Assembly: GCA_937871505.1 (NCBI GenBank)
Contig: CALMPF010000020.1
Location: 1-64,000, forward strand
Source: an uncultured Planctomycetia bacterium
GTDB taxonomy: Bacteria > Planctomycetota > Phycisphaerae > Phycisphaerales > SM1A02
Reading direction: 5' to 3'
Length of the DNA: 64,000 bases
Shown here: positions 7,376-22,691 of the stretch, piece after piece
Numbering within the stretch: the stretch's first letter is position 1
Layout of the letters: the number at the start of each line of letters is the position of its first letter
Translations under genes and position numbers: made by a program
The notes under the pieces: generated by a model
Told to the model about the DNA's origin: nothing
Seen by the model: the letters and a program-made list of their open reading frames with translations, nothing else
Databases searched by the model: none

Positions 7376-7448
7376 GCGGGCGTAGCTCAGTTGGTAGAGC
7401 ATCAGCCTTCCAAGCTGAATGTCGCCGGTTCGAACCCGGTCGCCCGCT
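7376..7448 (+). tRNA. tRNA-Gly (anticodon TCC)
   Basis: All cloverleaf parts are present. Acceptor arms GCGGGCG and CGCCCGC enclose a D-arm GCTC/GAGC with AGTTGGTA loop, an anticodon arm TCAGC/GCTGA with loop CTTCCAA (anticodon TCC), and a T-arm with TTCGAAC. CCA is not encoded; the discriminator base is T. TACACT at 7356-7361 may serve as a -10 box. The 3' part of the gene is the left half of the element's 49-bp att repeat, so integration left this tRNA intact. Confidence 0.95.
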
Positions 7449-7453
7449 TTGTC
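7405..7453 (+). repeat. attL: 49-bp direct repeat within tRNA-Gly
   Basis: Starts with GCCTTCCAAGCTGAATGTCG and ends with CGCCCGCTTTGTC. It is identical to 22643-22691; the flanking bases differ on both sides (A versus C before, C versus T after). The crossover presumably lies in the anticodon-loop part, as is usual for tRNA-targeting integrases. Confidence 0.92.
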
Positions 7454-7523: not shown

Positions 7524-7543
7524 GCCGGTAGTCCACTACCGGC
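7524..7543. promoter_or_regulatory. Left palindrome, candidate arm-type integrase site
   Basis: GCCGGTAG-TCCA-CTACCGGC is a perfect 8-bp inverted repeat 70 bp inside attL and just before the first integrase gene. The same arms occur at 22521-22537 near attR. A paired position near both ends fits arm sites or an integrase autoregulation operator; binding itself is inferred. Confidence 0.5.
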
Positions 7544-7564: not shown

Positions 7565-8755
7565 ATGCCCCGACGAGACGTCCCCAGCTACCGCCTCCAC
7601 AAGCCCACCGGACAGGCCGTCGTCACCATCGATGGCCGCGACCGCTACCTCGGCGCCCACGGATCGCCCGAGTCCCACCAGCGCTACGCCCAGGCCCTCG
7701 CCGACCGAGCCGCCGGCCTGAAACCTGCGGAGCCGCGACGCCGCGAGCGGCCGGGCCTGCTCACCTGTGACGGCCTGATCATCGCGTGGGCGGACCACGC
7801 CGCGAAGCTCTACGCCAACGGGCGTGAGGCCGCCAACTACCGGGCGGTCCTGGTCCTGCTCCGGGAGTTGAACGGGACCACGCCGGCGGCGGAGTTCTCG
7901 CCTCGCGACCTGCGCCGCATCCGCGACCGGATGGTCGCCGACGGCCGGGCCCGCTCCGCGATCAACCGGGAGGTGGTCCGCCTCCGCACGATCTTCCGTT
8001 GGGCCGCCGCGGAGGGCCTGATTCCCGCGAGCGTCCCGATGGCGCTGGGCATGATCCGCGGCCTCCGCGCTGGCGAGGGAGGGGCGCGGGAGGCGGAGCC
8101 CGTGCGCCCCGTGCGCCGCGAGATCGTCGAAGCGACCCTCGCGCACATGCCCCCGCCCGTCGCGGCGATGGTGCGCCTCCAGCTCCTCACCGGCATGCGC
8201 CCGGGCGAGGTCTGCGCGCTGCGCCCCGTCGACCTGGACGCCTCGGGCCGGATCTGGTGGTACACCCCGCCGAAGCACAAGACCGCCCACCGCGGCGCCG
8301 TCCGACGCATCCCGCTGATCCCTGCCGCCCAGGAGATCCTGAAGCCGTTCCTCTGCCGCACGCTCGACGCCTGCTGCTTCAGCCCCGCCGAGGCGGTCGC
8401 CTGGCACGCCGAGCGACGGGCGAGCTCGAGGACCACGCCCATGAGCTGCGGCAACCGCCCGGGCTCGAACCGGGTCGCGTTGCCGAAGCGTCCCCCCGGC
8501 GACCGTTACACCACCGCGACCTACGGCCACGCGATCACCTACGCCTGCGAGCGAGCCCTCGCCGAGGGTGAACGCTGGACGCCGAACCAGATCCGCCACC
8601 TCGTCGCGACCGAGGTCCGCCGGCACCACGGCATCGAAGCCGCCCGCGTCGTGTGCGGGCACTCCGTGATGTCCACCACCGAGACCTACTACGCCGAGGT
8701 CCACGCCGCCCAGGCGGCCGACGTCCTCGAGCGCATGGCGCTGCGCCAAGCCTGA
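7565..8755 (+). CDS. Tyrosine recombinase / integrase next to attL
   Basis: Site-specific recombinase of 396 residues of the planctomycete integrase type, likely the enzyme that inserts this element in tRNA-Gly. Catalytic parts: Arg212 in LLTGMRPGE, a Lys in PPKHKTAHRG (237 or 239), Arg344 in WTPNQIRH, His366 in VCGHS and Tyr375/376 in TETYYAE. The usual His of the HxxR box is Asn341, a substitution that many active recombinases tolerate. The N-terminal ~170 residues hold a YLG-type strand region and a core-binding helical domain. GAGG lies 9 nt before the ATG. The attL-proximal position, its upstream palindrome and the hairpin after its stop suggest an independent transcription unit. Confidence 0.9.
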   Translation: MPRRDVPSYRLHKPTGQAVVTIDGRDRYLGAHGSPESHQRYAQALADRAAGLKPAEPRRRERPGLLTCDGLIIAWADHAAKLYANGREAANYRAVLVLLRELNGTTPAAEFSPRDLRRIRDRMVADGRARSAINREVVRLRTIFRWAAAEGLIPASVPMALGMIRGLRAGEGGAREAEPVRPVRREIVEATLAHMPPPVAAMVRLQLLTGMRPGEVCALRPVDLDASGRIWWYTPPKHKTAHRGAVRRIPLIPAAQEILKPFLCRTLDACCFSPAEAVAWHAERRASSRTTPMSCGNRPGSNRVALPKRPPGDRYTTATYGHAITYACERALAEGERWTPNQIRHLVATEVRRHHGIEAARVVCGHSVMSTTETYYAEVHAAQAADVLERMALRQA

Positions 8756-8792: not shown

Positions 8793-8892
8793 GGGAACCC
8801 GGACCCCTCACCGCATTCTGGACGCCGAGCCGACGCGCACCTCGTCGGGTTCCCGCATCGGCCGGCGTCCACCCTCACCGAAGGAACCCGAC

Positions 8893-9738
8893 ATGAGCAC
8901 CCTCACCACCCGCAACGCCCCCGCCCGCACCACGCCCGACCGCATGACGAATCCGCGCAGCAAGAGCCGTGCACCGGCCATCACTCGACCGGCGACGCTC
9001 ACCATCGGGGAATGCAAGGCGTTCGTCGAGGCGGTTCGCGCCGACGTGACCGCGGGACACTTCGAGACGGCGGCGCGCACCATCACCGCCTGCGCCCTGG
9101 ACGCGCTTCGCTGGCCCTGTGTCGCGCCGCTCGACGTGCGTCGCGACATGAAGGATCAGCCGGGTTCAGAGGCCTTCGAGAAGATGGACGAGCGCTCGCG
9201 GCGCTGTCAGCTGCTTCGCCTCGCGGTCGACGAGTTCAGGGAGCGTGACGCGCCCACGATGGAGTTCTGCGGCCTCGTCAAGCAGGTCGCGTTCGAGGTC
9301 GACTGCGAGGCCCACGTGAAGCGAACGCACCTCAGCCCCTCGGAGATGGCGAGCGAGCTGATCGCGTTTGGGCGCCTTCTCGACCGCCTCTCACCGGGTG
9401 AGCGCATGAAGCCGAGCCAGTGGCCGAAGAGACTGGGCGCCGTCGAGGCGTTCGCCGTCGTCGGGAGTGATATGGCGCTCCGTCTGGATTCCGACCTGGA
9501 ACTCCAGCAGGACCCGGGATTCAGCCATCTCGCTCTGTACTCGTCGGTCGCTGCGGCGGCGCTCGACGTCACCCGGTCGCGGGTCGAGTTCGGGGCTCCC
9601 GACACGCTCCGGATCGTGCGAGTCCGGCTTGAGGTCGTCGGCGAGGCGGAGGTTCAGCCCGTCACGCGCGCCGAGCTCGCCGAGGGCGATGCCATCGCCT
9701 CGACCCACGACACGGGCCGAGACCTGGCGACTGTCTGA
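8893..9738 (+). CDS. Unknown element protein, paralogue A
   Basis: Hypothetical protein of 281 residues with no domain that I recognise. The Thr/Arg-rich N-terminus (about 40 residues) looks disordered. A helical middle follows (CKAFVEAVRADVTAGHFETAARTI; ALDALRWPC), then a beta-like C-terminal motif RIVRVRLEVVGEAEVQPV. The same architecture recurs in the gene at 10014, and the C-terminal motif recurs in the broken copy at 11078, so this is a duplicated family. AAGGA lies 8 nt before the ATG. The leader upstream (about 8820-8890) resembles the leader of the second copy, with shared phrases such as GGACGCCGAGCCGACGCGC, so promoter and gene duplicated together. Confidence 0.72.
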   Translation: MSTLTTRNAPARTTPDRMTNPRSKSRAPAITRPATLTIGECKAFVEAVRADVTAGHFETAARTITACALDALRWPCVAPLDVRRDMKDQPGSEAFEKMDERSRRCQLLRLAVDEFRERDAPTMEFCGLVKQVAFEVDCEAHVKRTHLSPSEMASELIAFGRLLDRLSPGERMKPSQWPKRLGAVEAFAVVGSDMALRLDSDLELQQDPGFSHLALYSSVAAAALDVTRSRVEFGAPDTLRIVRVRLEVVGEAEVQPVTRAELAEGDAIASTHDTGRDLATV

Positions 9739-9814
9739 ACGCCCTTCGTGCGGCGGCGGCGTGATCGCCGGCCAGCCTCAGACGCCGACCCACAAACCCC
9801 ACCCCCCTCGGGGG

Positions 9815-9906
9815 GGTGCTCGCGGGTCCTTCCGGCAGGGGGGAGGGGGGTCCGCGGTGAGGCGAGCCGCGGAAATCTCACACACACGTCACCTCGCCGA
9901 CCCCCT
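9815..9906 (+). repeat. Dispersed ~92-bp intergenic repeat, copy 1
   Basis: Begins GGTGCTCGCGGGTCCTTCCG and ends at CACCTCGCCGACCCCCT, with ACACACACGT in the middle. It is nearly identical to 17826-17916. Each copy precedes a gene by about 30-110 bp (here the gene at 10014, there the wHTH gene at 17948), so it may carry shared regulatory signals. Confidence 0.8.
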
Positions 9907-10013
9907 GCCGCCGCCGCCACGAACCCACCTCACCAACTCCGGGACGCCGAGCCGACGCGCCGTCGGGTTCACGCGAAGGCCGACGTCCAACCTCACGCAC
10001 GAAGGAGATCGAC

Positions 10014-10976
10014 ATGACGACAGCAACCACTCGCCGGACCGGCAGCGAGTCCACCACCATCCGCACACTCTCACCAGCCCGAGCGTGCGCCTCACCGCCC
10101 GCGCCGCGCCAGCTCAGCCCGCCGCCTGCTTCCGACCGCCGGCAAGCGCTGAATCCGGACGCGATGGCGGTTCATCACGAGCTCGTCGAGGCGTTCACCA
10201 CGTCGATCGCCGAATCGAGGTTCGAGGCATCGGCGATGCTCGTCGCCGCCTACGCGATCGGCGCGCTCTCGTTCCCCTGCGACGAGGCGGAGAAGGCCCG
10301 CGAGCGCAGTGGTGCACCCCTGGAGATCGGGTCGAGTGAGTTCCTCGCCGCGCACGAGAGGAAGAGGCGAGCCGCCGTGCTCCGGTCGCTGCTCAGGTCC
10401 GAGCTGATCTGGTCGAAGGCGGAGTCGAGTGAGACGGACACAATCGCCATGGTCGGCGCATTCAGAGGCAACATGGCGTGGGTGAGCTACTGCCTGGAGA
10501 AACACCCCGACGTCGTCGACGGCCCCGATGACCACGCCGAACAGATCTCCTGGGCGATCTACGCCCTCTGCGCCAGCGGCCGAGAGATCGACACCTTCCT
10601 CCGCGGAGGTCACGCAAGCAGCGCCCGCGTCCCCAAGCTCGGCGGCTTGAACGGGTTCGAGGCGTTCGTGGTCGCCGACGACGACGGCGGCATCGACTTC
10701 GGGAGCTGGATCGACATCCCCGTCGCCGACGACTCGAAGCACTACTCCACGCTCGAGCTCTACCCGCGCCTGGCCATGGCGATGATGCGGGTTCACAACT
10801 TTCGCCACGAAGGAAACGAGCAGTACTCGGGTGGTCGCGCCCGCATCCTCTGTGTGCGGGTGGAAGTGCTCGGGGAGGCAGGCGTCCAGCCGGTGTCGAT
10901 CGACGCCGTGGACGACGCATTGACGAACGCGGGCATCGGCCCGCTCTTCGAGCGGCAGGCTTCGACGGGCCAGTAG
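10014..10976 (+). CDS. Unknown element protein, paralogue B
   Basis: Hypothetical protein of 320 residues related to the product at 8893. Shared features are the Thr-rich start MTTATTRR, the helical block (AMLVAAYAIGALSFPCDEAE corresponds to the ITACALDALRWPC region of copy A) and the closing RILCVRVEVLGEAGVQPV. Copy B has an acidic insert near residues 215-240 (VVADDDGGIDFGSWIDIPVADD). No enzyme motif or membrane segment is visible, so the protein is probably cytoplasmic. AAGGAG lies 7 nt before the ATG, a strong start. It is followed by remnants of a third family member, suggesting repeated local duplication within the element. Confidence 0.75.
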   Translation: MTTATTRRTGSESTTIRTLSPARACASPPAPRQLSPPPASDRRQALNPDAMAVHHELVEAFTTSIAESRFEASAMLVAAYAIGALSFPCDEAEKARERSGAPLEIGSSEFLAAHERKRRAAVLRSLLRSELIWSKAESSETDTIAMVGAFRGNMAWVSYCLEKHPDVVDGPDDHAEQISWAIYALCASGREIDTFLRGGHASSARVPKLGGLNGFEAFVVADDDGGIDFGSWIDIPVADDSKHYSTLELYPRLAMAMMRVHNFRHEGNEQYSGGRARILCVRVEVLGEAGVQPVSIDAVDDALTNAGIGPLFERQASTGQ

Positions 10977-11000
10977 CCTGAACCAGGTGCTCGCCGACGA

Positions 11001-11125
11001 GCGGGCATCGGCCGGGGGGATCCCCGCGGAGCAGCACCTCGCACCGCGCGGACCCCCGGCCACCTTCGAGGTGCATCATGAAGACGACGAAGTCCGATCG
11101 ACCGGCCGCCAGGTCGGCCGCGCTC
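11001..11125 (+). repeat. 125-bp direct repeat, copy 1
   Basis: Matches 11717-11841 over about 125 bp with few differences. The repeat spans an upstream leader (GCGGAGCAGCACCTCG), a CGGACCCCCGGCCACCTTCG segment with GAGGTG ribosome-binding site, and the first 16 codons starting MKTTK(S/T)DRPAARSAAL. Confidence 0.85.
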
Positions 11126-11229
11126 GCGAGTCCTCTCACCCCCGCATCGTCCGCGTGCGCCTCGAGATCCTCGGCGACGCCCCGGTTCAGCCGGTCCCGC
11201 ACCACGAGCTCGGCGACGTCGCCTCCTGA
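11078..11229 (+). pseudogene. Chimeric remnant: start of one gene joined to end of another
   Basis: The ATG at 11078 opens with the same 16 codons as the gene at 11794 (MKTTKSDRPAARSAAL). After that, recognisable protein sequence continues only in the +1 frame relative to it, as RIVRVRLEILGDAPVQPV up to the stop at 11229. That is the C-terminal signature of the paralogues at 8893 and 10014. The middle is missing. I read it as a deletion/recombination scar, with a duplicated leader fused out of frame to the tail of a third paralogue. A short readthrough peptide cannot be excluded. Confidence 0.6.
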
Positions 11230-11248
11230 TCCGCCCCCGTTCGGCGGC

Positions 11249-11280
11249 GGTCGCTCGGCCAGGCTCGCGGCCGAGCGACC
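11249..11280 (+). terminator. Perfect 12-bp hairpin
   Basis: GGTCGCTCGGCC-AGGCTCGC-GGCCGAGCGACC forms a 12-bp stem with an 8-nt loop, 19 nt after the remnant's stop and 22 nt before the next gene. No T-run follows. It could be a terminator of the paralogue block or a protein-binding palindrome. Confidence 0.5.
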
Positions 11281-11302
11281 GTCCCGGAGGCCCTCACGAC
11301 CC

Positions 11303-11680
11303 ATGAAGCACGCCGCGAAACCGCGGAGCCGGCCGACGAAGCTCTACGTCCTCGAGCGCGATGGCGCCCTGTGCACCTGCGTCCTGGACCAACCCCCGTA
11401 CGTCGGCCAGTGGCTCCTGGTCTCGAAGTCCCACCGCGACGCGCTCAGGCTCGCGCGGTGGCTCAATGAGAACGAGGGCCCGAAGGTCGTCTGCAACTTC
11501 CGTGTGCGTGCGGACGCGCCGCGGCGCCCCGCCCGGCGCCGCCCCTCGCTCGTCGGCACCGTCGCCGGCGAGACGATCGAGACGCTGACCGCAGAGGCGC
11601 TCAGCCTCGGGCGTGGCGTGCTCTACCTGGCCGCCTGGAACGACGACGGATCGCCGCGCTGGGGCGGCGGCATCACCTGA
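11303..11680 (+). CDS. Small unknown element protein
   Basis: Hypothetical protein of 125 residues and basic charge, with the start MKHAAKPRSRPTKLYVLERD. The central part (QWLLVSKSHRDALRLARWLN) predicts a helix, and the end is Gly/Trp-rich (YLAAWNDDGSPRWGGG). GGAGG lies about 12 nt before the ATG. No family recognised. It stands between two copies of the 125-bp repeat, so it may have been caught between duplication events. Confidence 0.55.
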   Translation: MKHAAKPRSRPTKLYVLERDGALCTCVLDQPPYVGQWLLVSKSHRDALRLARWLNENEGPKVVCNFRVRADAPRRPARRRPSLVGTVAGETIETLTAEALSLGRGVLYLAAWNDDGSPRWGGGIT

Positions 11681-11716
11681 ACGAGTCAGTAGACTGCAAA
11701 CGTGACCCGCCGACGG

Positions 11717-11841
11717 GCGGGCACCGGCCGGGAGGATCCGCGCGGAGCAGCACCTCGCCCCGCGCGGACCCCCGGCCACCTTCGAGGTGCACGATGAAGA
11801 CGACGAAGACCGATCGACCGGCCGCCAGGTCGGCCGCGCTC
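11717..11841 (+). repeat. 125-bp direct repeat, copy 2
   Basis: Second copy of 11001-11125. Here the repeat ends inside an intact reading frame (gene at 11794), so this copy is probably the parent of the leader. Confidence 0.85.
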
Positions 11842-12681
11842 AAGTACGCCGGGTGGATGCATCAGGCGGCGAAGCAACTACGCGAAGCGGCGAGCAAGGC
11901 TGGGGCTCTCCGAGTTCGCCTCTACCAGCGTCTCCACGTCGTTCCTGCGGAGATGAACGCCGGGAGCCTGCTGGAAACGGGTCTGCTCGCCAAGCACTTC
12001 CGATGCTTGAAACTGGATGTCGGCTTCTGGAGGCCGGGCCTTTCAATGGTGGAGGGGCAGGAAGTCCGAGAGCTTCTGACGATGGTCTGCGGATCAGCAT
12101 TCTCGCGGCGCCACGTTGTGGATGACAGCCCCGTGGAGTTTCGCGGATTGGCCGATCCCCGCGTGAGACGGGAGGTCCTGAGAGGACTTCGCGGATGCGG
12201 GCCCAGCGGCGCCGTGATTCGCGTCACCGGTGCCTGGGCTTCGAAGCTCTCAAAGCCCAGCGGAGTGGAGGTGGACTACTGCCGCGCGCGCATCATGGAG
12301 TCGCCGCCGTCTCACCTCGCGGACCTTCTGCACGACGCCACGATCGTGCGCATCGAACGCCAGGCGAGTGTGCTCGACGAGATCGCATGCTCGATCGAAG
12401 AAGAGATCGCAGCGCGCAAGCGAACGAGAGCGAGCGACGACATTCAGAAAGTCCGGCTCAAGTTTCTCCTGAGCATGCTGGGGGACCGCGAAGGAGAGGG
12501 ATGGATGACGTTCACAGCGATCAGGGAACGCTTCAGCAAGGCGGAAGGGCAGTTGAGGACCGAGCACGACGAGGGTGTGAGGCGTGTGCTGAGACTCGCC
12601 AAAGCTGATGAGCTCATCGAACAGCGGAACCCCAAGTCGAGGAAGCACGACGACCGGCGATACCGCCTCAGGAGGAAATAG
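11794..12681 (+). CDS. Unknown protein with possible C-terminal winged helix
   Basis: Protein of 295 residues, not recognised. The basic N-terminus MKTTKTDRPAARSAALKYAG leads into helices. Residues ~150-210 are charged and helical. The last ~85 residues (VRLKFLLSMLGDREGEGWMTF then RVLRLAKADELIEQRNPKSR and RRYRLRRK) read like a winged-helix unit whose final basic strands would be the wing. GAGGTG 5 nt before the ATG supports the start. Codon choice is slightly less GC-biased than in flanking chromosomal genes. A DNA-binding regulatory role is inferred only from the C-terminus. Confidence 0.65.
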   Translation: MKTTKTDRPAARSAALKYAGWMHQAAKQLREAASKAGALRVRLYQRLHVVPAEMNAGSLLETGLLAKHFRCLKLDVGFWRPGLSMVEGQEVRELLTMVCGSAFSRRHVVDDSPVEFRGLADPRVRREVLRGLRGCGPSGAVIRVTGAWASKLSKPSGVEVDYCRARIMESPPSHLADLLHDATIVRIERQASVLDEIACSIEEEIAARKRTRASDDIQKVRLKFLLSMLGDREGEGWMTFTAIRERFSKAEGQLRTEHDEGVRRVLRLAKADELIEQRNPKSRKHDDRRYRLRRK

Positions 12682-12754
12682 CACACACACCGGAGGAGCA
12701 CACCGTGTGTGCTGCCTGGCGCCTTTTGGTCGGCTCGCGATGCATGCTGCACTG

Positions 12755-13138
12755 ATGGCAAGACCGAACAAGACCAAGACGCGCGCAGTGATGCCGCGTC
12801 GCACTACGCGACCTCGCGGAGTCGTCGAGACGACCGGCCGCCTGCTCCTATCTGAGCTCGCCCGTCGCGAGGGAGTCTCGCCGGCCACCGTCTGGCGCTG
12901 GTGCCGACGGGGCTCGCTGAGCGCTGGCGGCCTCCGACTCGTGCTGCCCTCCATCCGCATCGGCGGGCGATGGGCCGTCGAGCACGATGCGTACATCGAC
13001 TGGACACGACGCCTGGCCGAGCCTGCGCCGACGGCCGACGAGCATCCCACCCTAGCCAAGGTGCGGCGCATGACGCCGGACGAGCTGCGGCGCGAGTCGG
13101 CTCGGGCGGTCGGGATCGCGGAGGCCGGCCGCGCGTGA
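12755..13138 (+). CDS. Excisionase-like / DUF1580-like HTH protein
   Basis: Small DNA-binding protein of 127 residues. RLLLSELARREGVSPATVWR and WCRRGSLSAGGLRL make a MerR/excisionase-type helix-turn-helix. A wing then reads PSIRIGGRWAVEHDAYIDW, the pattern of planctomycete DUF1580 proteins that sit beside integrases. The basic start and the first position in the overlapped block suggest a recombination directionality factor or an element regulator. The ATG at 12740 is an alternative start. Its stop overlaps the GTG of the next gene (GTGA), so the two are translationally coupled. Confidence 0.72.
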   Translation: MARPNKTKTRAVMPRRTTRPRGVVETTGRLLLSELARREGVSPATVWRWCRRGSLSAGGLRLVLPSIRIGGRWAVEHDAYIDWTRRLAEPAPTADEHPTLAKVRRMTPDELRRESARAVGIAEAGRA

Positions 13139-14064
13139 GCGACGGTCCGGGCCAACCTGACGACGCCGCCAAGTCGACACCGAGGCTGTGCAGGACACCG
13201 CCCCTCGCCGTCGTGCCGACCTGGTGGTTCGCGCGGATGCGCGAGGTCGAACTCTCGCCCGCGGCCTTCGTCGTTCTCGTCGCGCTGACGGCCTTCGCCG
13301 ATGACGAGGGACTCTGCTTCCCGTCGCAAGAGACGCTCGCGAAGATGATCGGCCGCAACCCGGACAACATCCGCAGAATGGTGAAGCAGCTCAGGGAGGG
13401 CGGCTTCATAGAGGTCGCTCGGCGCCGCGCCCACCGCCGATGCCACGTCTACCGGGTCCTTCGCCAACGTCCCGCACCAGAGCGATCAGAGCCGAATGCA
13501 CTCCCCGCGCCTGCGCTGGGAGTCGAGCAGACCGGGATTCCAAACCTCGCGGGACTCCCCGCGCCTGCGCGGGCGGCAAATCTGCACAGCGAGCAGTGGA
13601 CTCCCCGCGCAGACACCCCACCGACTCCCCGCGCCGATGCTGCCTCGACTCCCCGCGCCCGTGCAGGAGGAACAGACCAGAGAACAGACCAGAGAACAGA
13701 CCACCCCCCCCAACCCCCCAAAGGGGGAGCAGGAAGGGGGGGGGGCGGGATCGATCAGACGGGGCAGAGACGGCCAGACATGACGCCCGCTCGCCATCCA
13801 GCACCGTCCCCCGCCCCCCGCACGTTCGCGCGGACGCCGATCATCGACGCGCCGAGCTGGAGCCAGACTCCCGCCCTCGCCGCACTCGATCGCGGCCAGC
13901 GGCTCCGGCTGGTCATCGACATGGCGGGAAAGCACCCGGAGCTCACCGACCTGAACGAGCCCGGGTACATCGCGGCCGCGTCCGCGCTGCTCGATCGCCG
14001 ACGCGCTGAGATGGCCGCGGTCGCTTGTCCGCCGCCGCCCAACACCACGGAGATCGCCGAATGA
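13135..14064 (+). CDS. HTH replication-initiator-like protein
   Basis: Protein of about 309 residues. An N-terminal winged helix (VELSPAAFVVLVALTAFADD then FPSQETLAKMIGRNPDNIRR, closing GGFIEVARR) matches the HTH_36 type found in phage and plasmid replication or DnaD-like proteins. The middle is a low-complexity Pro/Ala/Thr linker whose DNA contains direct repeats (13500-13660). The C-terminus (ALAALDRGQRLRLVIDMAGK ... EPGYIAAASALLDRRRAEM) is helical. The architecture fits an initiator carrying its own iterons, but no Rep catalytic motif is visible, so regulation is the alternative. GTG start overlaps the previous stop. Confidence 0.68.
   Translation: MSDGPGQPDDAAKSTPRLCRTPPLAVVPTWWFARMREVELSPAAFVVLVALTAFADDEGLCFPSQETLAKMIGRNPDNIRRMVKQLREGGFIEVARRRAHRRCHVYRVLRQRPAPERSEPNALPAPALGVEQTGIPNLAGLPAPARAANLHSEQWTPRADTPPTPRADAASTPRARAGGTDQRTDQRTDHPPQPPKGGAGRGGGGIDQTGQRRPDMTPARHPAPSPAPRTFARTPIIDAPSWSQTPALAALDRGQRLRLVIDMAGKHPELTDLNEPGYIAAASALLDRRRAEMAAVACPPPPNTTEIAE
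13500..13710 (+). repeat. Iteron-like ACTCCCCGCGC repeats plus 12-bp tandem array
   Basis: The 11-mer ACTCCCCGCGC occurs at 13500, 13554, 13600, 13624 and 13648; the last three are spaced exactly 24 bp apart. They are followed by about three copies of the 12-mer AACAGACCAGAG (about 13671-13706) and then C- and G-runs. All lie in the linker of the HTH gene. Confidence 0.7.
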
Positions 14065-14330
14065 CCACGCTGACCCCTCCAGCACGCGCCGACTCGTTCA
14101 TGACACTCGATCACCACCCGGCCCCGATCGAGCTGCGCAGCGAAGCACACGAAGCGCTCCGCGCCTCGATGCGCGCGCGGCTCGCGCAGCTCATCGCGGA
14201 GCCTGCATCGAAGCCGCTGCGCGGGATCGAACTCGCCCAGCTCACCGAATGCCTGGGGATCGACGTCCCGACGGCGCTCGCCGGTCGGGGGTCCCGGATC
14301 CCCACCGCAAGGACGGAGGGCCACCAGTGA
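14061..14330 (+). CDS. Small unknown protein in coupled operon
   Basis: Protein of 89 residues, unrecognised. It begins MTTLTPPARADSFMTL. A helical middle (HEALRASMRARLAQLIAEPA, then LRGIELAQLTECLGIDVPTAL) could form a small helix-turn-helix. The ATG overlaps the stop of the upstream gene (ATGA), and its own stop overlaps the GTG of the next gene (GTGA). This coupling supports it as a real gene despite its size. Confidence 0.62.
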   Translation: MTTLTPPARADSFMTLDHHPAPIELRSEAHEALRASMRARLAQLIAEPASKPLRGIELAQLTECLGIDVPTALAGRGSRIPTARTEGHQ

Positions 14331-15232
14331 ACCCCGAACCACGCGCCGAAGAGCCGATCGAGACCGACCAGAACACACCGGAGCCTTGCCGTGAGGACTC
14401 GGGGGGAGCCTTCTCGGCGCCCCCCGGGGAGGTCTTCCAGATTTCCCAGTCGCCGAACTGGTACGCCATGCGCTTCCATCCCGAGACGCGGAAGTGGGTC
14501 CGTCTCTCGACGCTCACGAGCGAGAGGGCCGTCGCATACTGGCGCGCCCAGGAATGGCTTCGCGAGGCGGACAAGATCCGCGGCCTGAGTCCGTCTTGTC
14601 GGCCGATCCCGAACCGGATCCCGCGAGACGTGGTGTTCCCGCCGGCGGTCTGGCCACCCGCGTTCGACGGTCCGCGCCGGTCGGAACTCCCACCGCTCCG
14701 CATCGTCGAGCCGGAGATCAGGGAGCACCGCTTTGGCGGTCGTCCCTTCGTCGGGTGGAAGTACTGGGCGCGCCGCTTCGACACCGAAAGGGGACTCTGG
14801 CGATGGCAGGAGACAAACACGAACGTCACCGCGCAGGCTCAGCGGATCGCGACGCGCTGGGTGAACGAGGGCCGCAGGATCCTCGAGGAAAGGCGGCGGC
14901 TGGAGGAGCGGAAGTTCGCCCCGCCGCAGCCGCTCTACACCGTCGAGGGACTCGCCGCCTACTGCGGACATGGCCGACTGTCCAAGGGCGCCTTCGAGCG
15001 CTGGAGGGACACTGGCCAGCTCTTCGACCCGATCGACGACGGGATCGACGTCGACGGTCGCAGGAGGCCCGCGCGATGGTGCGGAGCGCAACTCGACCAG
15101 TGGTTTCAGTGGCGCCAGCCGTGCGCGATCGAGTTCCGCAGGTTGTGGCGCGTGAGGTTCAAGGACGCGGCGAGAGAGCAGCTCCTCGACGCCATGGATG
15201 AGGCCCGACGCCGAAAAGAGGCGTCGACGTGA
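14327..15232 (+). CDS. Integrase-arm-domain-like protein without catalytic domain
   Basis: Protein of about 301 residues. It holds two copies of a short module, YAMRFHPETRKWVRLST and YWARRFDTERGLWRWQET, each followed by an Ala-rich helix ending W-x-x-E. The same module begins the recombinase encoded next (YYAMRFDVDRGAWRRAST). The C-terminus (LYTVEGLAAYCGHGRLSKGA ... DGIDVDGRRRPARWCGAQLD) resembles an excisionase-type winged HTH. No R-H-R-H-Y core is present. It overlaps the recombinase gene by GTGA. I infer a DNA-binding partner that reads the same arm-type sites, perhaps a directionality factor; this architecture is unknown to me. Confidence 0.68.
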   Translation: MNPEPRAEEPIETDQNTPEPCREDSGGAFSAPPGEVFQISQSPNWYAMRFHPETRKWVRLSTLTSERAVAYWRAQEWLREADKIRGLSPSCRPIPNRIPRDVVFPPAVWPPAFDGPRRSELPPLRIVEPEIREHRFGGRPFVGWKYWARRFDTERGLWRWQETNTNVTAQAQRIATRWVNEGRRILEERRRLEERKFAPPQPLYTVEGLAAYCGHGRLSKGAFERWRDTGQLFDPIDDGIDVDGRRRPARWCGAQLDQWFQWRQPCAIEFRRLWRVRFKDAAREQLLDAMDEARRRKEAST

Positions 15233-16800
15233 CCACCGACGAGCTGCGGCAGCGCAACACACCCGGCCGCGCGTTTCGGATCGCCGCGTCGAGCGTCTAC
15301 TACGCCATGCGCTTCGACGTCGATCGAGGCGCGTGGCGGCGCGCCAGCACCCGGGAGGCGGATCTCGTCGCTGCTGCGAAGGTGGCCGAGCGATGGAAGC
15401 GGGAAGGCGACCGAGCCCGCAGTCTCCGCGTCGAGCCCCGGCGCGAGGCGCTGGGGCAGCGGACGAAGGCAGCGGCGACCCGACGAGCGCGCACGGCCGA
15501 CCGACGAGCGTCGAGCCTCAACCGCGTCGCGGCGCCGGAACCTCCCGCCTCATCGATCACCGCCCTGATCGACGACTACATCACCTTCCGGCGCAACTCC
15601 GCCGACGGGCCGAAGGACCGGCATCTCACCGAGACCCGGCGCCTGCTGCGGCGCCTGCTGGTCGAGGCCGGCTGGCGCGAGGCGCGGGAGATCGATCTCG
15701 GATCGTGGCAGGCGGCGATGGCAGCGGTCGCCAGTGCAGAACCAGCTTCCACCAGAGGGACCCGGCGACCAGGAGCAGGGCGCCGCCGCGGCGATGCTGA
15801 GCGGCCGTCGTCCACCCCGATGGCGGACCTCGAGCGCACCCGCCGCGGCCGCGAGGCGTCGCAGCGGCTCTCGAACAACACGCTCAACCACTACCGCGCC
15901 GCCTGGAAGGCGTTCACCAAGTGGGCGCACAACGCCGGCGAGATCGAGAAGAACCCCCTCGCCGGACTCGTGCGCTACCGCACCGCGGGCTTTGAGCGTC
16001 GCAGGAGGCTCGCCCTGAGCGTCGAGGGCTTCCGACGCCTCTTCGCGAGTGTGTCGACGTCCGACGTCACCAGGGCCGGCCTGGACGGCCGGGCGAGGGC
16101 GATGCTCTACCTCGTCGCGGTCTGCTCAGGGTTCCGGCGCGGCGAGCTGGCGGCGCTCGAGCCCGCGAGCCTTCGGCGTGGCGCGGACGGCCGGCTCGTG
16201 GCGCACCTGCCGGCATGGGCGACCAAGAACGGCGAGACGGCGACTCAGCCGATGCTCCCCGACGTCGAGGCGGCGATGGCATGGGTCGCGTCGCGCCCGG
16301 CACGGACACCACTCTGGCCCGGCCTGGGCGATCTCGGCGCCGCGGCGATGCTCCAGGCGGATGCACGGGCGGCGGGAGTCGCGACCAGCTCACCGGATGG
16401 TCGTCGGCTCGACTTCCACTCGCTGCGCCGGACGTTCGGCACGTGGCTCGTCACCGAGTACCGGGTGCACCCGAAGCTGGCTCAGGAACTGATGCGGCAC
16501 TCGAGCGTGGAGTTGACGATGATGCTCTACACCGAGGTCGACGCCGCGGATCTCGGCGCCTCAATCGGGCGACAAGTCGGCGCAGTGAACCCGCGCAAGC
16601 TTGCGCAGACGGACCCCGATGGAATCGGGGTTGTAGCGGGGTCGTGTTTTGACGCTCGGGCTGTGGAGCCGATGGAATCGGGGATTGTGCCGAACACGAT
16701 TCCCGACTGTGAGTCGGACGCAACGGCGCAAGGTTCCGACCCTCCGCTCCGTGCACTTGGGCTTGGGGATGCGCGGCAGTCACGAGGCGCCGACCGATGA
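15229..16800 (+). CDS. Second tyrosine recombinase
   Basis: Site-specific recombinase of 523 residues with a complete catalytic set: Arg303 (CSGFRRGEL), Lys333 (ATKNGE), His397-x-x-Arg400 (DFHSLRRTFG), His424 (LMRHSS) and Tyr434 (MMLYTEV). It has an N-terminal arm-like module at about 23-60, a disordered basic linker (70-105) and a core-binding domain (108-250) with a low-complexity insert near 170-210. It lies mid-element, unlike the integrase at attL, and is overlapped by genes on both sides, so it is probably expressed with the HTH/replication block. It may serve excision, dimer resolution or a second att site. The ~90-residue C-terminal tail is divergent. Confidence 0.9.
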   Translation: MTTDELRQRNTPGRAFRIAASSVYYAMRFDVDRGAWRRASTREADLVAAAKVAERWKREGDRARSLRVEPRREALGQRTKAAATRRARTADRRASSLNRVAAPEPPASSITALIDDYITFRRNSADGPKDRHLTETRRLLRRLLVEAGWREAREIDLGSWQAAMAAVASAEPASTRGTRRPGAGRRRGDAERPSSTPMADLERTRRGREASQRLSNNTLNHYRAAWKAFTKWAHNAGEIEKNPLAGLVRYRTAGFERRRRLALSVEGFRRLFASVSTSDVTRAGLDGRARAMLYLVAVCSGFRRGELAALEPASLRRGADGRLVAHLPAWATKNGETATQPMLPDVEAAMAWVASRPARTPLWPGLGDLGAAAMLQADARAAGVATSSPDGRRLDFHSLRRTFGTWLVTEYRVHPKLAQELMRHSSVELTMMLYTEVDAADLGASIGRQVGAVNPRKLAQTDPDGIGVVAGSCFDARAVEPMESGIVPNTIPDCESDATAQGSDPPLRALGLGDARQSRGADR

Positions 16801-17870
16801 TCCAGTCCCCCGCATCGATGCGCGATCAGCCGCGCCTTCGCATCGCCTGGCGGGCGTTCGTCGAGGCCGCGTCGCGATGGCGCGGCGAAGAGGTCTCGCT
16901 CGAGCTCGCGATGGAGCTCGCCGAACGACTGCGGCGCGCGGCCGGCGAGGCGGAGGTCTCAGTCCGCACGCTGCACGATGCCACCGACGCGATCCTCACC
17001 GGCCTGTCGGCGCGGCATCATGACGCGGGGTCGACCGTCCCCGACTGGCGACACGCCGCCGCGATTCGCGCGGCGATCGCCGCCGCGGGAGATCGCCCCG
17101 ACCCCTCCGGCGGGGCCCAGGGAACCCCGAGCCCGCCCGCGACTCCGGCCGCTCTCGCCGAGTACGTCGCTGCCGCGGCCGCCTGGCGCGGAACGCTTCC
17201 CGATCGCCGCGCTGCCGCGGCCTGGGCGGACGTGATGCGTCGTCGCAGGGGCGAACGGTTCGTCACGGCGACCCTGATTCGAGACCTGGTGGACGCAGTG
17301 AGCACCGGTCGCGTGGCCAGCCTCTGCGTCGCGAGGGACCGCGTGAATCGTCGTCACCGCACCATCGCGATCGAGACAGCGGACCGCGCCGCCGGCCCGC
17401 CCGAGCCTCGCCACCTCATCGAAGACGAAGAGGGAACACCCGCCGCGCTCCCGACCCGGGAGCGGTGGAGTGAGTTCGCCGCCGCGGCCGCGACGTGGCG
17501 CGGGGCGAAACTCGACGAACGCGATCCCCTCTCCTGGGCGGATGCATGGAGACGCCGATCCCGGCGTCCTCGAGTCACCGACGAGCTGCTCACCCTGGCG
17601 GTCGCGGCGATCTCCGCGGCGGAGGCGGGGATCAAGCTCGCGGTGCGTGGCGAGAACGTGGGGCCGGACTTCATGGAGGGCGTCCGGCGCGCCGACCTCG
17701 CCGCGGGCGTCCCGGTCCCGGCCGCCGCCGCGACGTCCGCCACGGCGAGCGACCTTGCCGTCGACGAGCCGGCCGGGGAAGGTCCGGACGGGGCCCCGGG
17801 GGGCGGGGGGCGGGGGGCGGGGGAGGGTGCTCGCGGGTCCTTCCGGCAGGGGGGAGCGGGTCCGCGGTGA
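16797..17870 (+). CDS. Protein with three internal ~60-residue repeats
   Basis: Protein of 357 residues, function unknown. The same helical module appears three times: AWRAFVEAASRWRGEEVSLE, AEYVAAAAAWRGTLPDRRAA and SEFAAAAATWRGAKLDERDP. Each continues W/M-x-x-R-R-R and a helix ending near I-x-x-(G/A)-x-x. Three-fold helical repeats suggest a scaffold or DNA/RNA-binding solenoid. The ATG overlaps the recombinase stop (ATGA). The C-terminus is Gly/Arg low complexity, and its last codons lie in the dispersed 92-bp repeat, so the original end may have been replaced by that insertion. Confidence 0.68.
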   Translation: MIQSPASMRDQPRLRIAWRAFVEAASRWRGEEVSLELAMELAERLRRAAGEAEVSVRTLHDATDAILTGLSARHHDAGSTVPDWRHAAAIRAAIAAAGDRPDPSGGAQGTPSPPATPAALAEYVAAAAAWRGTLPDRRAAAAWADVMRRRRGERFVTATLIRDLVDAVSTGRVASLCVARDRVNRRHRTIAIETADRAAGPPEPRHLIEDEEGTPAALPTRERWSEFAAAAATWRGAKLDERDPLSWADAWRRRSRRPRVTDELLTLAVAAISAAEAGIKLAVRGENVGPDFMEGVRRADLAAGVPVPAAAATSATASDLAVDEPAGEGPDGAPGGGGRGAGEGARGSFRQGGAGPR

Positions 17871-17916
17871 GGCGAGCCGCTGAAATCTCACACACACGTC
17901 ACCTCGCCGACCCCCT
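17826..17916 (+). repeat. Dispersed ~92-bp repeat, copy 2
   Basis: Near-identical to 9815-9906. It covers the last codons and stop of the three-repeat gene and ends 32 bp before the wHTH gene; it is followed by a run of CTC triplets. Confidence 0.8.
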
Positions 17917-17947
17917 CCTCCTCCTCCTCCAGCTCTTCCGCGGCCGC

Positions 17948-18268
17948 ATGCACCGAACTGACGTGATCCGCGCCACCCGCATCGCTCCGCCGGCCCCGAA
18001 AGAGCGCGTCGCACCCGTCGACGCCGCGCCCTGCTGCCGCCTCTCCGTCCTGGTCCTCCAGACTGTGGTCTTCGCGAAGGCGCCGCTGATCACCGAAGCG
18101 GTCGCCGCGATCGTGTTCCGAGGCGATCCCGACGTCGCCAACCGCAAGCGGCCAACCGTCTGGCGCACCCTGAACAAACTCGAGCGCGGCGGTCTCGTCG
18201 AGCGACTGACGCCCCGCGGCGGATACAGCGCGACCGAAGCCGGCCGCCGCGTCGTCATGCCCACATGA
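17948..18268 (+). CDS. Small winged-helix regulator
   Basis: Protein of 106 residues. The segment VLQTVVFAKAPLITEAVAAI followed by TVWRTLNKLERGGLVERLTP and GGYSATEAGRRV matches a winged helix of the PadR/BlaI/MarR kind: recognition helix, KLERGGLVER and a wing. It probably regulates the tail-like module that follows after a strong hairpin. The ATG at 17948 is chosen because the open frame upstream runs through the dispersed repeat and antisense-like sequence. No Shine-Dalgarno sequence is evident. Confidence 0.7.
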   Translation: MHRTDVIRATRIAPPAPKERVAPVDAAPCCRLSVLVLQTVVFAKAPLITEAVAAIVFRGDPDVANRKRPTVWRTLNKLERGGLVERLTPRGGYSATEAGRRVVMPT

Positions 18269-18347
18269 AATGGTGAGCGCAGTGAGCGCTAATCAGGATG
18301 GGCACGCGGCATCATGATTCCGGTTCGCTCCCTGCGGTGATGGTCGG

Positions 18348-18374
18348 GGGCGCCCGTGCCGCTGGCGGGCGCCC
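18348..18374 (+). terminator. Hairpin between regulator and tail-like module
   Basis: GGGCGCCCG-TGCCGCTGG-CGGGCGCCC is a perfect 9-bp stem with a 9-nt loop followed by the pyrimidine tract TCCTCTCTCTC. It lies 80 nt after the regulator stop and 40 nt before the next start, and fits a terminator for the upstream operon. Confidence 0.6.
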
Positions 18375-18413
18375 TCCTCTCTCACTCAAGCCCCGTTTCC
18401 AAGGATCAACACC

Positions 18414-18800
18414 ATGAGCGTGAACGAAACCCCGGAGCGTCCCTTACCCAATCCCGGCGAGGTCGTCTTCATCGAAGCCGGCAAGCTGCGCGTCGGCGTC
18501 CGCGTCTTGAGCGTCCGCGAGCATCGGCAGGCGATCGCGTTGCACGAGCAGTACACCGACCTCGCGAGCGGCGACTCGCCGGAAGCCTCAGACGCCAAGG
18601 TGGACGAACTGGGGCGCCTCCTCCTCGTCGATCCCGACGGTGGCGACATCACCCAGAGGCTCCTGGGATCCCTCTCGACGATGCAGTTCTGGAACACCAT
18701 CCGCCGAGCGTTCCGCGTGCAGGTGACAGGCAGCGACGACGAGGGCGATCCCGAACCGACGGCCGACGAAGTGGCCTCCGGCGCTCCGGCGAGTGACTGA
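18414..18800 (+). CDS. Tail-assembly-chaperone-like protein
   Basis: Protein of 128 residues with AAGGA 9 nt before the ATG. Features: a beta-like start GEVVFIEAGKLRVGVRVLSV, a helical middle (REHRQAIALHEQYTDLASGD; LLGSLSTMQFWNTIRRAFRV) and an acidic tail with many Asp/Glu. The size, the acidic end and the position directly before a long coiled-coil protein are those of a phage tail-tube chaperone preceding the tape measure. I see no clear slippery site for the usual frameshift. The assignment rests on gene order, not on a recognised domain. Confidence 0.55.
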   Translation: MSVNETPERPLPNPGEVVFIEAGKLRVGVRVLSVREHRQAIALHEQYTDLASGDSPEASDAKVDELGRLLLVDPDGGDITQRLLGSLSTMQFWNTIRRAFRVQVTGSDDEGDPEPTADEVASGAPASD

Positions 18801-18866
18801 CTTCCACAGGACACCGGGCCGCCCCGCGCCCGACCGCACTGACGCCCCCTGAGAGCTCAGGCAACC

Positions 18867-20222
18867 ATGCAGCAGAAGTCCGGCGTAGACATCCCCGTCC
18901 GAGTGAAGGACGAGACCGCAGCAGGTCTCCGCGCCATCTCGACCAGGGTGAAGGCGTCCCTTGGGGAACTGCGGAAGTCAGTGATGATGGACGGGCTCCC
19001 GGGCGGTGCGGGAGGCCTTCGTGGCGCAGCCGGCGGACTCACGCCCGGCATGGCGTCCAGGGCGATGCGCGGGGGCGCGGCCGGCATCGTCGCTGGCCTG
19101 GCGGTGGGTGAGATCAAAGGAACGGTCGACAAGCTGATCCAACTCCGCGATCGGAACGCGGAAGTGAAGATGAGCACCTACGACATGGTGCGGGCATACG
19201 CCGAGGCGATCCCAGTCTTCGGTCGCGTGTTCTCCATGGTGACCGGCCTGGGCGACTCGTTGCACGAACTGGCCACCGGCGAGGAAGCCGCCGCGAGGGC
19301 GGCGGCCCGTCGCAATCGTGAGATCGGCGCGCAGACCGCGGCGCTGCACGAGTCCCGTCGAGTCAGCCGTGAGATCGTCGCGGGCCAGCGGATGAGACTG
19401 GACGATCTGGCGAAGGAAGCAGCGCTGGCGCAAGCGTTGATCGGCCTGGACGAAGAGCGATCGCAGAACGTCCGCGACTTCTACGCGCTCGAAGCGCGGT
19501 ATGGTGACCTGCGCAAGAAGCATGCTGCGGAACTGCAGGCATTCGACGATGCCAAGGCAGAGACCAGGAACCAGCTAAACCAGCTTCAGAACCAACTGGG
19601 ATTCAACGATCGCGAGACAGGCGAGCAGGTCCACGCGTTCGACAGAGAGACGGAGCGAGAGCGACAACTGCTGGTCGGCCGACAGGGTACAGAGCTCGGC
19701 CTGGTCGAAGAAGCGGCATTCGCCACCCAGCAGCGCCGCCACGTCGAGGCCGCCCGCCAGGCGATGGAGCAACGCAAGGAGGATGAGCAGGAAGCGCAAC
19801 GCAACGCGCTGAGGCAGCGGCTGGACCTCGAACATGACGTCTGGAATGCACGACGTTCGTTGACCGCGTCGCTCCTCACCGATGAGCAGCGCCAACGCCT
19901 CCGGTTCGAGGAGCAGTTCGCGGATCTCGAACGCCGCGGCGCTTCACGCTCTGAACTCGATCGACTCCGCATCCTCTTCGCGCAGCAGGGCATCGGCGCG
20001 GAGAACGACTACGGCATGATCCAGCGCGTGCAGGCGCAGTCGCTCGGCCGGTTCCAGCGCGATCGCGGAACTCTCGAGCAGCGCGAGGTGGCGCCGGAGC
20101 GCGCCGCGAAGGCAGCCGAAGAGACGGCGAAGGCGACCAAAGAGAGTGAGCGGCTGCTCACTGAGTTGCTCACCGAGGTGCGCAACCAGGGTCAGTCCAC
20201 TGTCCAGGTGGTGGGATTCTGA
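18867..20222 (+). CDS. Coiled-coil protein resembling a short tail tape measure
   Basis: Protein of 451 residues. The start (VDIPVRVKDETAAGLRAIST) is like tape-measure N-termini. A Gly/Ala-rich hydrophobic segment at about 50-85 (MRGGAAGIVAGLAVGEIKG) and a second at about 110-125 follow. From 145 to the end the chain is nearly all charged helix rich in Glu, Arg and Gln, hence long coiled coils. Full tape measures are usually much longer, so this would give a short tail or a satellite form; a coiled-coil effector is the alternative. Its stop overlaps the next ATG by one base (TGATG). Confidence 0.58.
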   Translation: MQQKSGVDIPVRVKDETAAGLRAISTRVKASLGELRKSVMMDGLPGGAGGLRGAAGGLTPGMASRAMRGGAAGIVAGLAVGEIKGTVDKLIQLRDRNAEVKMSTYDMVRAYAEAIPVFGRVFSMVTGLGDSLHELATGEEAAARAAARRNREIGAQTAALHESRRVSREIVAGQRMRLDDLAKEAALAQALIGLDEERSQNVRDFYALEARYGDLRKKHAAELQAFDDAKAETRNQLNQLQNQLGFNDRETGEQVHAFDRETERERQLLVGRQGTELGLVEEAAFATQQRRHVEAARQAMEQRKEDEQEAQRNALRQRLDLEHDVWNARRSLTASLLTDEQRQRLRFEEQFADLERRGASRSELDRLRILFAQQGIGAENDYGMIQRVQAQSLGRFQRDRGTLEQREVAPERAAKAAEETAKATKESERLLTELLTEVRNQGQSTVQVVGF

Positions 20223-20899
20223 TGGTTGTCGTCTCCGCCGCGCCGCACCCAATCGACGAAGGACCACGACCCCAAGTGCCAAAGACCCCACCCGCATCGA
20301 CGAAGCCCGGGCCCCCCTCAACCCCCGTCGACATGGACGCGTTGATGGCCGAGCAGCAGCGCAAGCTCGCGCGGATCTACGGCCTCGCCGTCTTTCAGAT
20401 GGCGAGCCGCGACGTCTCCCCTCGGCTCCAGCGTCTCGTGAACCTCGCCAGGACGCAACTCCAGTCGCAGTCCGGCAAGGCGCGTCCCGAGTTCCAACAC
20501 GTGTTCATGCGTGCCCAGAACTGGCCCGGGATGGTGCGCTGGACTGATCAGGCGCCCGAGGCGGCGAAGCGCCGCCTCGCGATGGAGGGTGAGATCAAAG
20601 AAGCTGAAGCCAAGGCTGGCGCGCTTCGCAAGCAAGCCGATCAGATCGTCGCGAAGGCGTGGGAGAAGGTCCATGCCGACGGCTGGGAAGCCGTGATCGG
20701 TGTACTGCGAAACGCTGAATCCTCGACCCGGTCAATGGCGGAGATCGCGCAGATGCTCGGCGACGTCGCCGACTGGTGGCCGATCCCGGACTCTGTGCCG
20801 ATCGCACGGTCTGAGGACGCGGACGCGGATCGTCCAGAACAGCTCGACGACGCCACGCTTGCGGGGAAGCTCGCAACCGCGCTCGGACTCAGTGAATGA
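20222..20899 (+). CDS. Unknown protein of tail-like module
   Basis: Protein of 225 residues. A Pro-rich disordered start (to about 40) precedes a helical body (VDMDALMAEQQRKLARIYGL; EAEAKAGALRKQADQIVAKA) and an acidic end (ARSEDADADRPEQLDD). No signal or membrane segment is visible. The one-base overlap with the coiled-coil gene and the ATGA overlap with the next imply co-translation and possibly a stable complex. No family recognised. Confidence 0.62.
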   Translation: MVVVSAAPHPIDEGPRPQVPKTPPASTKPGPPSTPVDMDALMAEQQRKLARIYGLAVFQMASRDVSPRLQRLVNLARTQLQSQSGKARPEFQHVFMRAQNWPGMVRWTDQAPEAAKRRLAMEGEIKEAEAKAGALRKQADQIVAKAWEKVHADGWEAVIGVLRNAESSTRSMAEIAQMLGDVADWWPIPDSVPIARSEDADADRPEQLDDATLAGKLATALGLSE

Positions 20900-21549
20900 A
20901 CGAGACCGCGATCGTTGATCTTCCGCCTGAGGAGCTCTCCCCGGAGACTCTCCTCCCCGAGCTCGAGCGGGTCGATCCAATGCGCCGCACGTGGATCCAC
21001 GAGGCAGGACACGTCGTGCTCGCCGCGATCTACCACCGGAAGACGCTGGAGCTCTGCCTGGAACCATCGGACGAGTGGCAGGCGTGGATGAAGCACGAGA
21101 CACTCCTCGGCGCCCACGACACCGCTCCGCTCCTGGTTCGTCAGGAGATCGTGATTCTGATGGGGGGAGTCGCAGCCGAGAACCTCATCCTCGGCAATCA
21201 CACCACGCTTGACGACACTGGTCCGTCTCGTGACCTCAGGGACGCGCTTCGGCACGCTCGCTCACTGGCGGGGATCGACGCTGGACAGGCCGCCGCCAGG
21301 CGAATCGTCGACGAGGCGCTCGAGGTCGCGAGCGAAGCCCTCCGTGAACACAAAGACCTGATCCAGATGCTCGCTCACTTCCTGGCGGAGATGCGCAGCC
21401 TGCTTGACGTGATCCGGGGCTCAATCCAGCACCGAGCGTCCATTGAGCGACGACTGTCCGAGTCCGTGAACTCAAACCCCAGCAAGGCACTCTCCGAGCG
21501 GTTCTTCGCCGATCCCTTCCAACCCCGCTCACAAGGCCAGTCGCAATGA
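20896..21549 (+). CDS. Stand-alone M41 (FtsH)-like metalloprotease domain
   Basis: Protein of 217 residues with the zinc motif HEAGHVVLA (His35, Glu36, His39), then MGGVAAENLILG (89-100) and DDTGPSRDLRDALRHA. In FtsH, the matching blocks are HEAGHA, GGRxAE and a TTGAxxDL-type motif whose Asp is the third zinc ligand, here Asp113. No AAA+ ATPase or membrane helix is attached. It should be a soluble zinc protease or a relative that lost ATP-driven unfolding. Translational coupling (ATGA) on both sides places it in the module. Head or tail maturation protease, or anti-host effector, are both inferences. Confidence 0.72.
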   Translation: MNETAIVDLPPEELSPETLLPELERVDPMRRTWIHEAGHVVLAAIYHRKTLELCLEPSDEWQAWMKHETLLGAHDTAPLLVRQEIVILMGGVAAENLILGNHTTLDDTGPSRDLRDALRHARSLAGIDAGQAAARRIVDEALEVASEALREHKDLIQMLAHFLAEMRSLLDVIRGSIQHRASIERRLSESVNSNPSKALSERFFADPFQPRSQGQSQ

Positions 21550-22181
21550 CCACACGGACCAGCTCCACCACAGCCCCCGTTGACCCGCCGAGCACCACTT
21601 CCCGCCCCGGCGCTGAGTGCCTCTTGGACGCCGTGGCGATCACGCTGCCCATTGAATCCGACGACGACAAGCTCGGGACCGTGTACGCCGACATCGACCG
21701 GGGGCCGAAGCCGCACTGGCTCGGGGGGCTGATCACGCAGTTCGTGGGCACCGCGGGCTTCAAGGGCGTCTGTGGGCAGCCAGAGACCCTTGGGGCCGCG
21801 CTGCGGGAACCACTGACCGCCGAGGAGACTCTCGAGCGACTGGTGTCTCAGTTCCACCAAGGCGGTTCCGTGGCGGTCGGGCTCTTCCGGCTCAAAGGGG
21901 TGCTCTCGACGAACGTGCTCTTGCGGCTGCTCTCGGACGCGCTCAACGCTCGTCCTGTGTCCGACGTACGTGTTCAGCTCAACTGGCTCTGTGCGACGTA
22001 CCTCGGATCATCCGCGGAGCCGTCCCTTCAGTGCGTCACCACTCGGCTGATCCGAAGCAGGAACTCTGCCCTGCGACCAGCAATGGACCTGATCACTGAG
22101 GGTCGGGTGGTCATTCCCAACCTCCGCTTCCGGGTCGCGCTCGAGCGCGCGCCGGAGCCGTCGGCTGAAGCGGCCGGGTGA
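21546..22181 (+). CDS. Unknown protein ending the tail-like module
   Basis: Protein of 211 residues. The Thr/Ser/Pro-rich start is disordered; the rest mixes short strands and helices (VAITLPIESDDDKLGTVYAD; SDVRVQLNWLCATYLGSSAE; GRVVIPNLRFRVALERAPEP). No motif is recognised. It is coupled to the protease gene by ATGA and is the last gene of the element. A role as partner or substrate of the protease is only suggested by the coupling. Confidence 0.62.
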   Translation: MTTRTSSTTAPVDPPSTTSRPGAECLLDAVAITLPIESDDDKLGTVYADIDRGPKPHWLGGLITQFVGTAGFKGVCGQPETLGAALREPLTAEETLERLVSQFHQGGSVAVGLFRLKGVLSTNVLLRLLSDALNARPVSDVRVQLNWLCATYLGSSAEPSLQCVTTRLIRSRNSALRPAMDLITEGRVVIPNLRFRVALERAPEPSAEAAG

Positions 22182-22385: not shown

Positions 22386-22390
22386 GCCCT

Positions 22391-22520: not shown

Positions 22521-22537
22521 GCCGGTAGCACTACCGG
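22521..22537. promoter_or_regulatory. Right palindrome, candidate arm-type integrase site
   Basis: GCCGGTAG-CA-CTACCGG repeats the arms of 7524-7543 at 105 bp inside attR; a further half-like TACCGG follows at 22542-22547. Same arms and mirrored placement suggest shared integrase or excisionase binding. Confidence 0.5.
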
Positions 22538-22642: not shown

Positions 22643-22691
22643 GCCTTCCAAGCTGAATGTCGCCGGTTCGAACCCGGTCGCCCGCTTTGTC
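22643..22691 (+). repeat. attR: 49-bp partial tRNA-Gly copy
   Basis: Identical to 7405-7453. Only the 3' half of the tRNA is present here; the D-arm is missing, so this is not a functional tRNA gene. Confidence 0.92.

Follow-up and report, generated by a model that had tools for sequence, protein, structure and literature searches.

A putative catalysis-free protein with two integrase-type AB modules, co-encoded with a second tyrosine recombinase inside an integrated element

As a rule, an integrase is given its direction by small excisionases, separate proteins that alter the use of arm sites by the arm domain of the enzyme. Multi-gene recombinase units that include a non-catalytic accessory protein are also known, as in TnpABC of Tn554 and in the gamma-mobile trio. 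For tyrosine recombinases with an AB domain, an adjoining att site is usual, not obligatory. The AB domains dock on arm sites and direct the reaction towards integration or excision (PMC8138268). Many excisionases are winged-HTH proteins; for the RDF RdfS, HTH group 17 is the closest match (PMC11963761). Moreover, Xis of phage lambda raises the binding of the Int N-domain at P2 (PMC4880445). Here we describe a locus where these two kinds of function may have come together. It lies in a 64,000-nt stretch of DNA, analysed as a whole and called the window below, which is part of a draft genome of 4.2 Mb in 72 contigs. Judged by the style of the encoded proteins, the genome is probably that of a Phycisphaerales-like planctomycete. 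Its sequence supports the view that the gene starting at 14327 encodes a catalysis-free double arm-domain protein, and that this protein would be co-translated with a complete tyrosine recombinase encoded from 15229. The sequence-only reading of this DNA knew of no described system of this kind, and no equivalent was found in the literature searched, which was a limited search.

An integrated element with two tyrosine recombinases

A direct-repeat search together with a tRNA call placed in the window an element integrated in tRNA-Gly (7405-22691), with terminal repeats 15,238 bp apart (Table 1). The 49 bp repeated at both ends are the 3' part of that tRNA gene. The integrase encoded next to the tRNA (7565-8755) was absent from the sequence-only reading. 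The pattern of the two palindromes inside the element ends occurs at just these two sites in the window and in the whole genome, and in none of 100 shuffles; the palindromes suggest themselves as candidate arm or excisionase sites for the 7565 integrase. Because the 49-bp repeats adjoin the gene of the 7565 integrase, the att regions most likely belong to that enzyme and not to the 15229 recombinase. Since the element has its own, different integrase at the tRNA as well as the palindromes at its ends, we regard the 15229 recombinase as a second, internal one. It had been proposed earlier that the 14327 protein sets the direction of recombination at the two att regions, but this part of the proposal is not supported, as the att repeats adjoin the 7565 integrase and the 15229 recombinase has no identified att site.

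Table 1. Positions in the window of the element ends, the genes and the protein modules discussed in the text
Feature	Position	Strand	Evidence
att repeat, left end, inside and slightly beyond tRNA-Gly (7376-7448)	7405..7453	+	49-bp exact direct repeat, tRNA call
Palindrome GCCGGTAGTCCACTACCGGC inside left end, partner of 22521-22537	7524..7543	.	pattern search
Element's own tyrosine integrase, adjoining the tRNA, different from the 15229 recombinase	7565..8755	+	Phage_integrase E=7e-13, PHROG integrase E=3e-35
HTH_36 (DnaD/replication-initiator-like) protein, upstream in the gene run	13213..14064	+	Pfam HTH_36 E=1.7e-12
Small 89-aa ORF, overlapping its neighbours by ATGA and GTGA	14061..14330	+	sequence
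Catalysis-free protein, 301 aa	14327..15232	+	ORF, coding-frame score
AB-like module a, ~residues 32-89	14420..14593	+	integrase-only HMM 39.8 bits; 40% identity to recombinase N-terminus over 55 aa
AB-like module b, ~residues 127-186	14705..14884	+	integrase-only HMM 30.1 bits; predicted strand-strand-strand-helix
Probable winged-HTH (excisionase/AlpA-like) region, ~residues 203-268	14933..15130	+	weak profile match
Element's second tyrosine recombinase, AB + CB + CAT, 523 aa	15229..16800	+	Phage_integrase 31.1 bits, PHROG integrase 85.2 bits
AB module of the recombinase	15259..15432	+	17.8 bits (HMM without recombinase and sister), predicted strand-strand-strand-helix
Gene 3' of the recombinase, ATGA overlap; three tandem helical-looking repeats of ~53-56 aa	16797..17870	+	sequence, alignment
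att repeat, right end	22643..22691	+	49-bp exact direct repeat
Palindrome GCCGGTAGCACTACCGG inside right end, matching 7524-7543	22521..22537	.	pattern search

The 15229 recombinase appears in the middle of the element, within a run of overlapping genes extending from 13213 to 17870 in which every overlap is ATGA or GTGA. Its residues R303, K333, H397, R400, H424 and Y434 are the same in all seven integrases that were aligned, so that the R-K-H-R-H-Y set is complete. In the family its matches are distant throughout, the nearest being an integrase (37-40% identical) that the same genome encodes on contig C23; there is no match among phage records. The AB-type integrase gene of several sister loci extends at its 3' end into a tRNA, whereas the gene of the 15229 recombinase does not, and neither a tRNA nor an att repeat was found at its 3' end. 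Across the sister loci, the integrase genes of L056, L066, L067, L060, L064 and L065 overlap a tRNA gene or end within ~80 bp of one. A search for an arm or core site of the 15229 recombinase found none; a 13-bp direct repeat, GATGGAATCGGGG, which the 3'-terminal part of its gene contains at 16618 and 16671, was set aside as a pair of arm sites since, with two mismatches allowed, its matches were not clearly above chance. The gene following the recombinase encodes repeats with an A-x-x-WRG-like motif in common, and its product has no family match in Pfam, PHROGs or NCBIfam.

Several repeats were also found within the element. A 97-nt direct repeat (9810-9906 and 17821-17916; 96% identical) has just two copies in the genome, and these flank the 8 kb that holds the 14327 and 15229 genes. 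The possibility that it is an attC-like folded site was dropped, as its folding is no better than that of shuffles. The left half of the element contains paralogous duplicated genes (8893-9738, 10164-10976 and 10987-11229) and a 161-nt direct repeat (10965-11125 and 11681-11841), and the paralogues show that simple duplication is common within the element.

Doubled AB modules in the 14327 protein

The 14327 protein consists, in order, of an N-terminal tail, AB module a, a Pro-rich linker, AB module b, a probable HTH and a charged helical tail. Its ORF starts with GTG and has AGGACGGAGG ahead of the start; it contains 301 codons without stop or frameshift, and across nearly all of 14327-15232 the + frame scores as the best-coding of the six. 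The 15229 ORF likewise starts with GTG, and the two ORFs have a GTGA in common, as the coordinates 14327-15232 and 15229-16800 bear out for the overlap that the sequence-only reading had pointed to. The same reading had seen no catalytic core in the 14327 protein and two copies of the N-terminal module of the recombinase. Both points stand. The protein has no match in Pfam, PHROGs or NCBIfam, and the core-binding and catalytic domains are absent; the evidence for the modules is as follows.

By BLASTP, residues 33-87 (40% identity) and 126-184 (~35%) of the 14327 protein align to the N-terminus of the 15229 recombinase. For a non-circular test, an HMM was built from eight integrase N-termini, with the 14327 protein excluded. 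This integrase-only HMM detected domains at residues 33-85 (39.8 bits) and 145-185 (30.1 bits); the best of the 2000 shuffles scored 5.9 bits. When the window recombinase and its sister were also left out of the HMM, the two domains still scored 26.4 and 16.6 bits, with a shuffle maximum of 6.6; with the same HMM the N-terminus of the 15229 recombinase scored 17.8 bits (the maximum of 6.6 being from shuffles of the 14327 protein). Because the interpretable database matches of the modules were the N-termini of full-length integrases, we identify the module as the AB domain of complex tyrosine recombinases. Both modules form a group with the AB domains of the 15229 recombinase and of the C23 sister integrase, with a mutual identity of 30-40%, while the identity of this four-member group to other integrases is 17-29%, one pair excepted at 38%. 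From this difference in identity, the modules of the 14327 protein most likely descend from the lineage of the 15229 recombinase.

The structure predictions are in line with this assignment. In the AlphaFold models, module b (residues 141-190, block-mean pLDDT ~54-74) and the N-terminus of the 15229 recombinase (block-mean pLDDT ~60-73) are both strand-strand-strand-helix, and in module a the helix goes with three strands, two of them long and one of only two residues. Both models are of low confidence, with a mean pLDDT of 45.8 for the 14327 protein and ~46 for the recombinase, so the likeness of the predicted folds, which was the structural check proposed for the modules, speaks for them weakly: the predicted topologies agree with the AB fold, which is agreement and not proof. 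A fold search with the low-confidence model of the 14327 protein gave no significant match.

The excisionase-like HTH that had been read at the C-terminus fared less clearly. By eye, residues ~203-268 resemble a winged HTH, and a two-sequence profile of the most similar HTH proteins from sister loci scored 10.9 bits at the C-terminus of the 14327 protein. On the other hand, 2 of 2000 shuffles scored higher, a profile of eight HTH proteins did not find the region, and there was no Pfam HTH match either. We consider a winged HTH at the C-terminus to be likely but unproven, the profile match being suggestive only. One match of the HTH region in the family (G766:C132, E=2.4e-5) proved to be an alternative frame within a well-coding ORF, DUF1501-like by eye, and matches of the C-terminus on contigs C46 and C7 of the same genome were other genes or wrong frames.

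As a whole, the 14327 protein is an orphan known from one genome. No whole-protein homologue was found in 181 genomes of the family, in samples of 400 genomes of the order and 392 of the phylum, or in phage or plasmid records. A pattern search of contigs from IMG/VR and GTDB, which reaches close relatives only, gave no homologue. Of the weak matches from the order and the family that were inspected, those other than integrase N-termini were chance frames.

Possible roles of the 14327 protein

Small HTH genes stand upstream of AB-type integrase genes in sister loci, one of them in the same genome. At L056, which is on contig C23 (G000:C23), there is an overlap between an HTH_17/AlpA-type gene and the start of the gene for the integrase that is 37% identical to the 15229 recombinase. 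HTH_17-type genes adjoin the integrase at L067 and L065, as does an HTH-like gene without significant Pfam match at L057 and another, judged without a Pfam scan, at L058. Moreover, an HTH_36 gene lies upstream of the integrase at L063, and also at L066 (slightly under the Pfam cut-off), as it does in the window. Probably, then, the 14327 protein fills the excisionase/regulator slot of the sister elements, enlarged by two AB modules.

Upstream of the L065 integrase, on the reverse strand, there is also an integrase-like ORF of ~281 aa in which the first half of the catalytic domain is kept. It is 32% identical to an integrase over 130 aa, and the part with HxxR and Tyr is apparently absent. This is the converse case of a catalysis-free partner close to an integrase.

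We favor the reading that the 14327 protein is an accessory DNA-binding factor of the 15229 recombinase, which would hold the place of an excisionase or regulator and have gained AB modules; from the sequence, we put its probability at about 0.5. What favors it is that the modules are above chance, that the gene is co-translated with the recombinase, that the recombinase is intact and that HTH genes are present in the sister loci. It is weakened by the lack of a whole-protein homologue, the weak HTH, the position of the att sites beside another integrase, and the fact that no arm or core site of the 15229 recombinase was found. Under this reading, the two AB modules would bind the arm-type sites of the 15229 recombinase, or compete for them, and the HTH part would bind a site neighboring the arm sites. 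In this way the protein might alter the bridging of arm and core sites by the recombinase so that one direction is favored or the reaction is blocked, and it may autoregulate its operon. The protein could have originated when an HTH-integrase locus was duplicated and subsequent deletions joined integrase N-termini to the HTH. DNA binding, a site specificity in common with the recombinase and an effect on direction are properties that we infer for the protein. It is a tentative and rather doubtful idea that the fusion of two AB domains to an excisionase-type HTH has joined arm-site competition and excisionase function in one co-translated molecule, a new kind of recombination accessory factor that would have control over the second recombinase of the element.

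The same kind of origin, a tandem duplication of an HTH-integrase unit with subsequent deletions, could instead have left a mere by-product of rearrangement, in which case the protein would be an orphan that takes no part in recombination, and the second recombinase next to it would be redundant and inherited. The whole protein has no homologues, there are other duplications in the element (the paralogous genes and the 161-nt and 97-nt repeats), and the att site is served by the separate 7565 integrase, all of which suits such an origin; however, the uninterrupted 301 codons in the best-coding frame argue mildly against it, as do a ribosome-binding site and overlapping start and stop that have been kept, and modules that have diverged to 30-40% identity and are yet unbroken. 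We find this explanation doubtful. The protein might also be an antagonist or repressor that sits on the arm sites or on a promoter and silences the recombinase or the operon, with no directional role. DNA-docking modules without a catalytic part, and the overlap with the recombinase gene, are what one would expect of it; the sequence does not separate silencing from a role in directionality, but translation ahead of and together with the recombinase speaks mildly against pure silencing, and we hold this to be unlikely.

More improbable still is that the pair acts within the element, away from its ends; its target might be the 97-nt repeats, for example, or it might serve a multimer resolution tied to the HTH_36 replication-type gene. 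The idea draws on the near-identity of the 97-nt copies, their restriction to two places in the genome and their flanking of both genes, and on the presence of the HTH_36 gene upstream in the same run. However, several base differences and an indel separate the copies, which is not what newly formed att sites look like; a core-like inverted site could not be demonstrated, and the paralogous genes in the same stretch indicate that simple duplication is common there.

Comparison with described systems

If the accessory-factor reading is true, extra arm domains and an HTH combined in one natural protein would be a direct means of occupying arm sites, and proteins of the 14327 type would be a testable tool for steering recombinases. 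The locus is also of interest as an example of an element that carries a further tyrosine recombinase besides its own, different integrase.

The modules of the 14327 protein match the AB domain of complex tyrosine recombinases (of the Int-Tn916 type, with three strands and one helix), with strand-strand-strand-helix predicted at low confidence. In contrast to these enzymes, the AB modules are doubled and the protein is without core-binding and catalytic domains. To HTH_17/AlpA-type excisionases and RDFs such as RdfS, lambda Xis and Apl it can be likened by the position of its gene, directly upstream of and overlapping the recombinase gene, and by its probable C-terminal winged HTH. It differs from them in its far larger size (301 aa), its two AB modules and its weak HTH match. 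Like Tn554 TnpABC and the gamma-mobile trio, the locus encodes a non-catalytic partner together with its tyrosine recombinase, but here there is one catalytic subunit, and the partner is built of AB modules. The 15229 recombinase stays far below the cut-off of the GmtY model NCBIfam NF040693, with 16.8 bits against 340. Thus, a recombinase with an accessory DNA-binding protein is known, while a partner composed of doubled AB modules, as the sequence of the 14327 gene predicts, is unusual, and its likeness to integrase AB domains is real and clearly above chance.
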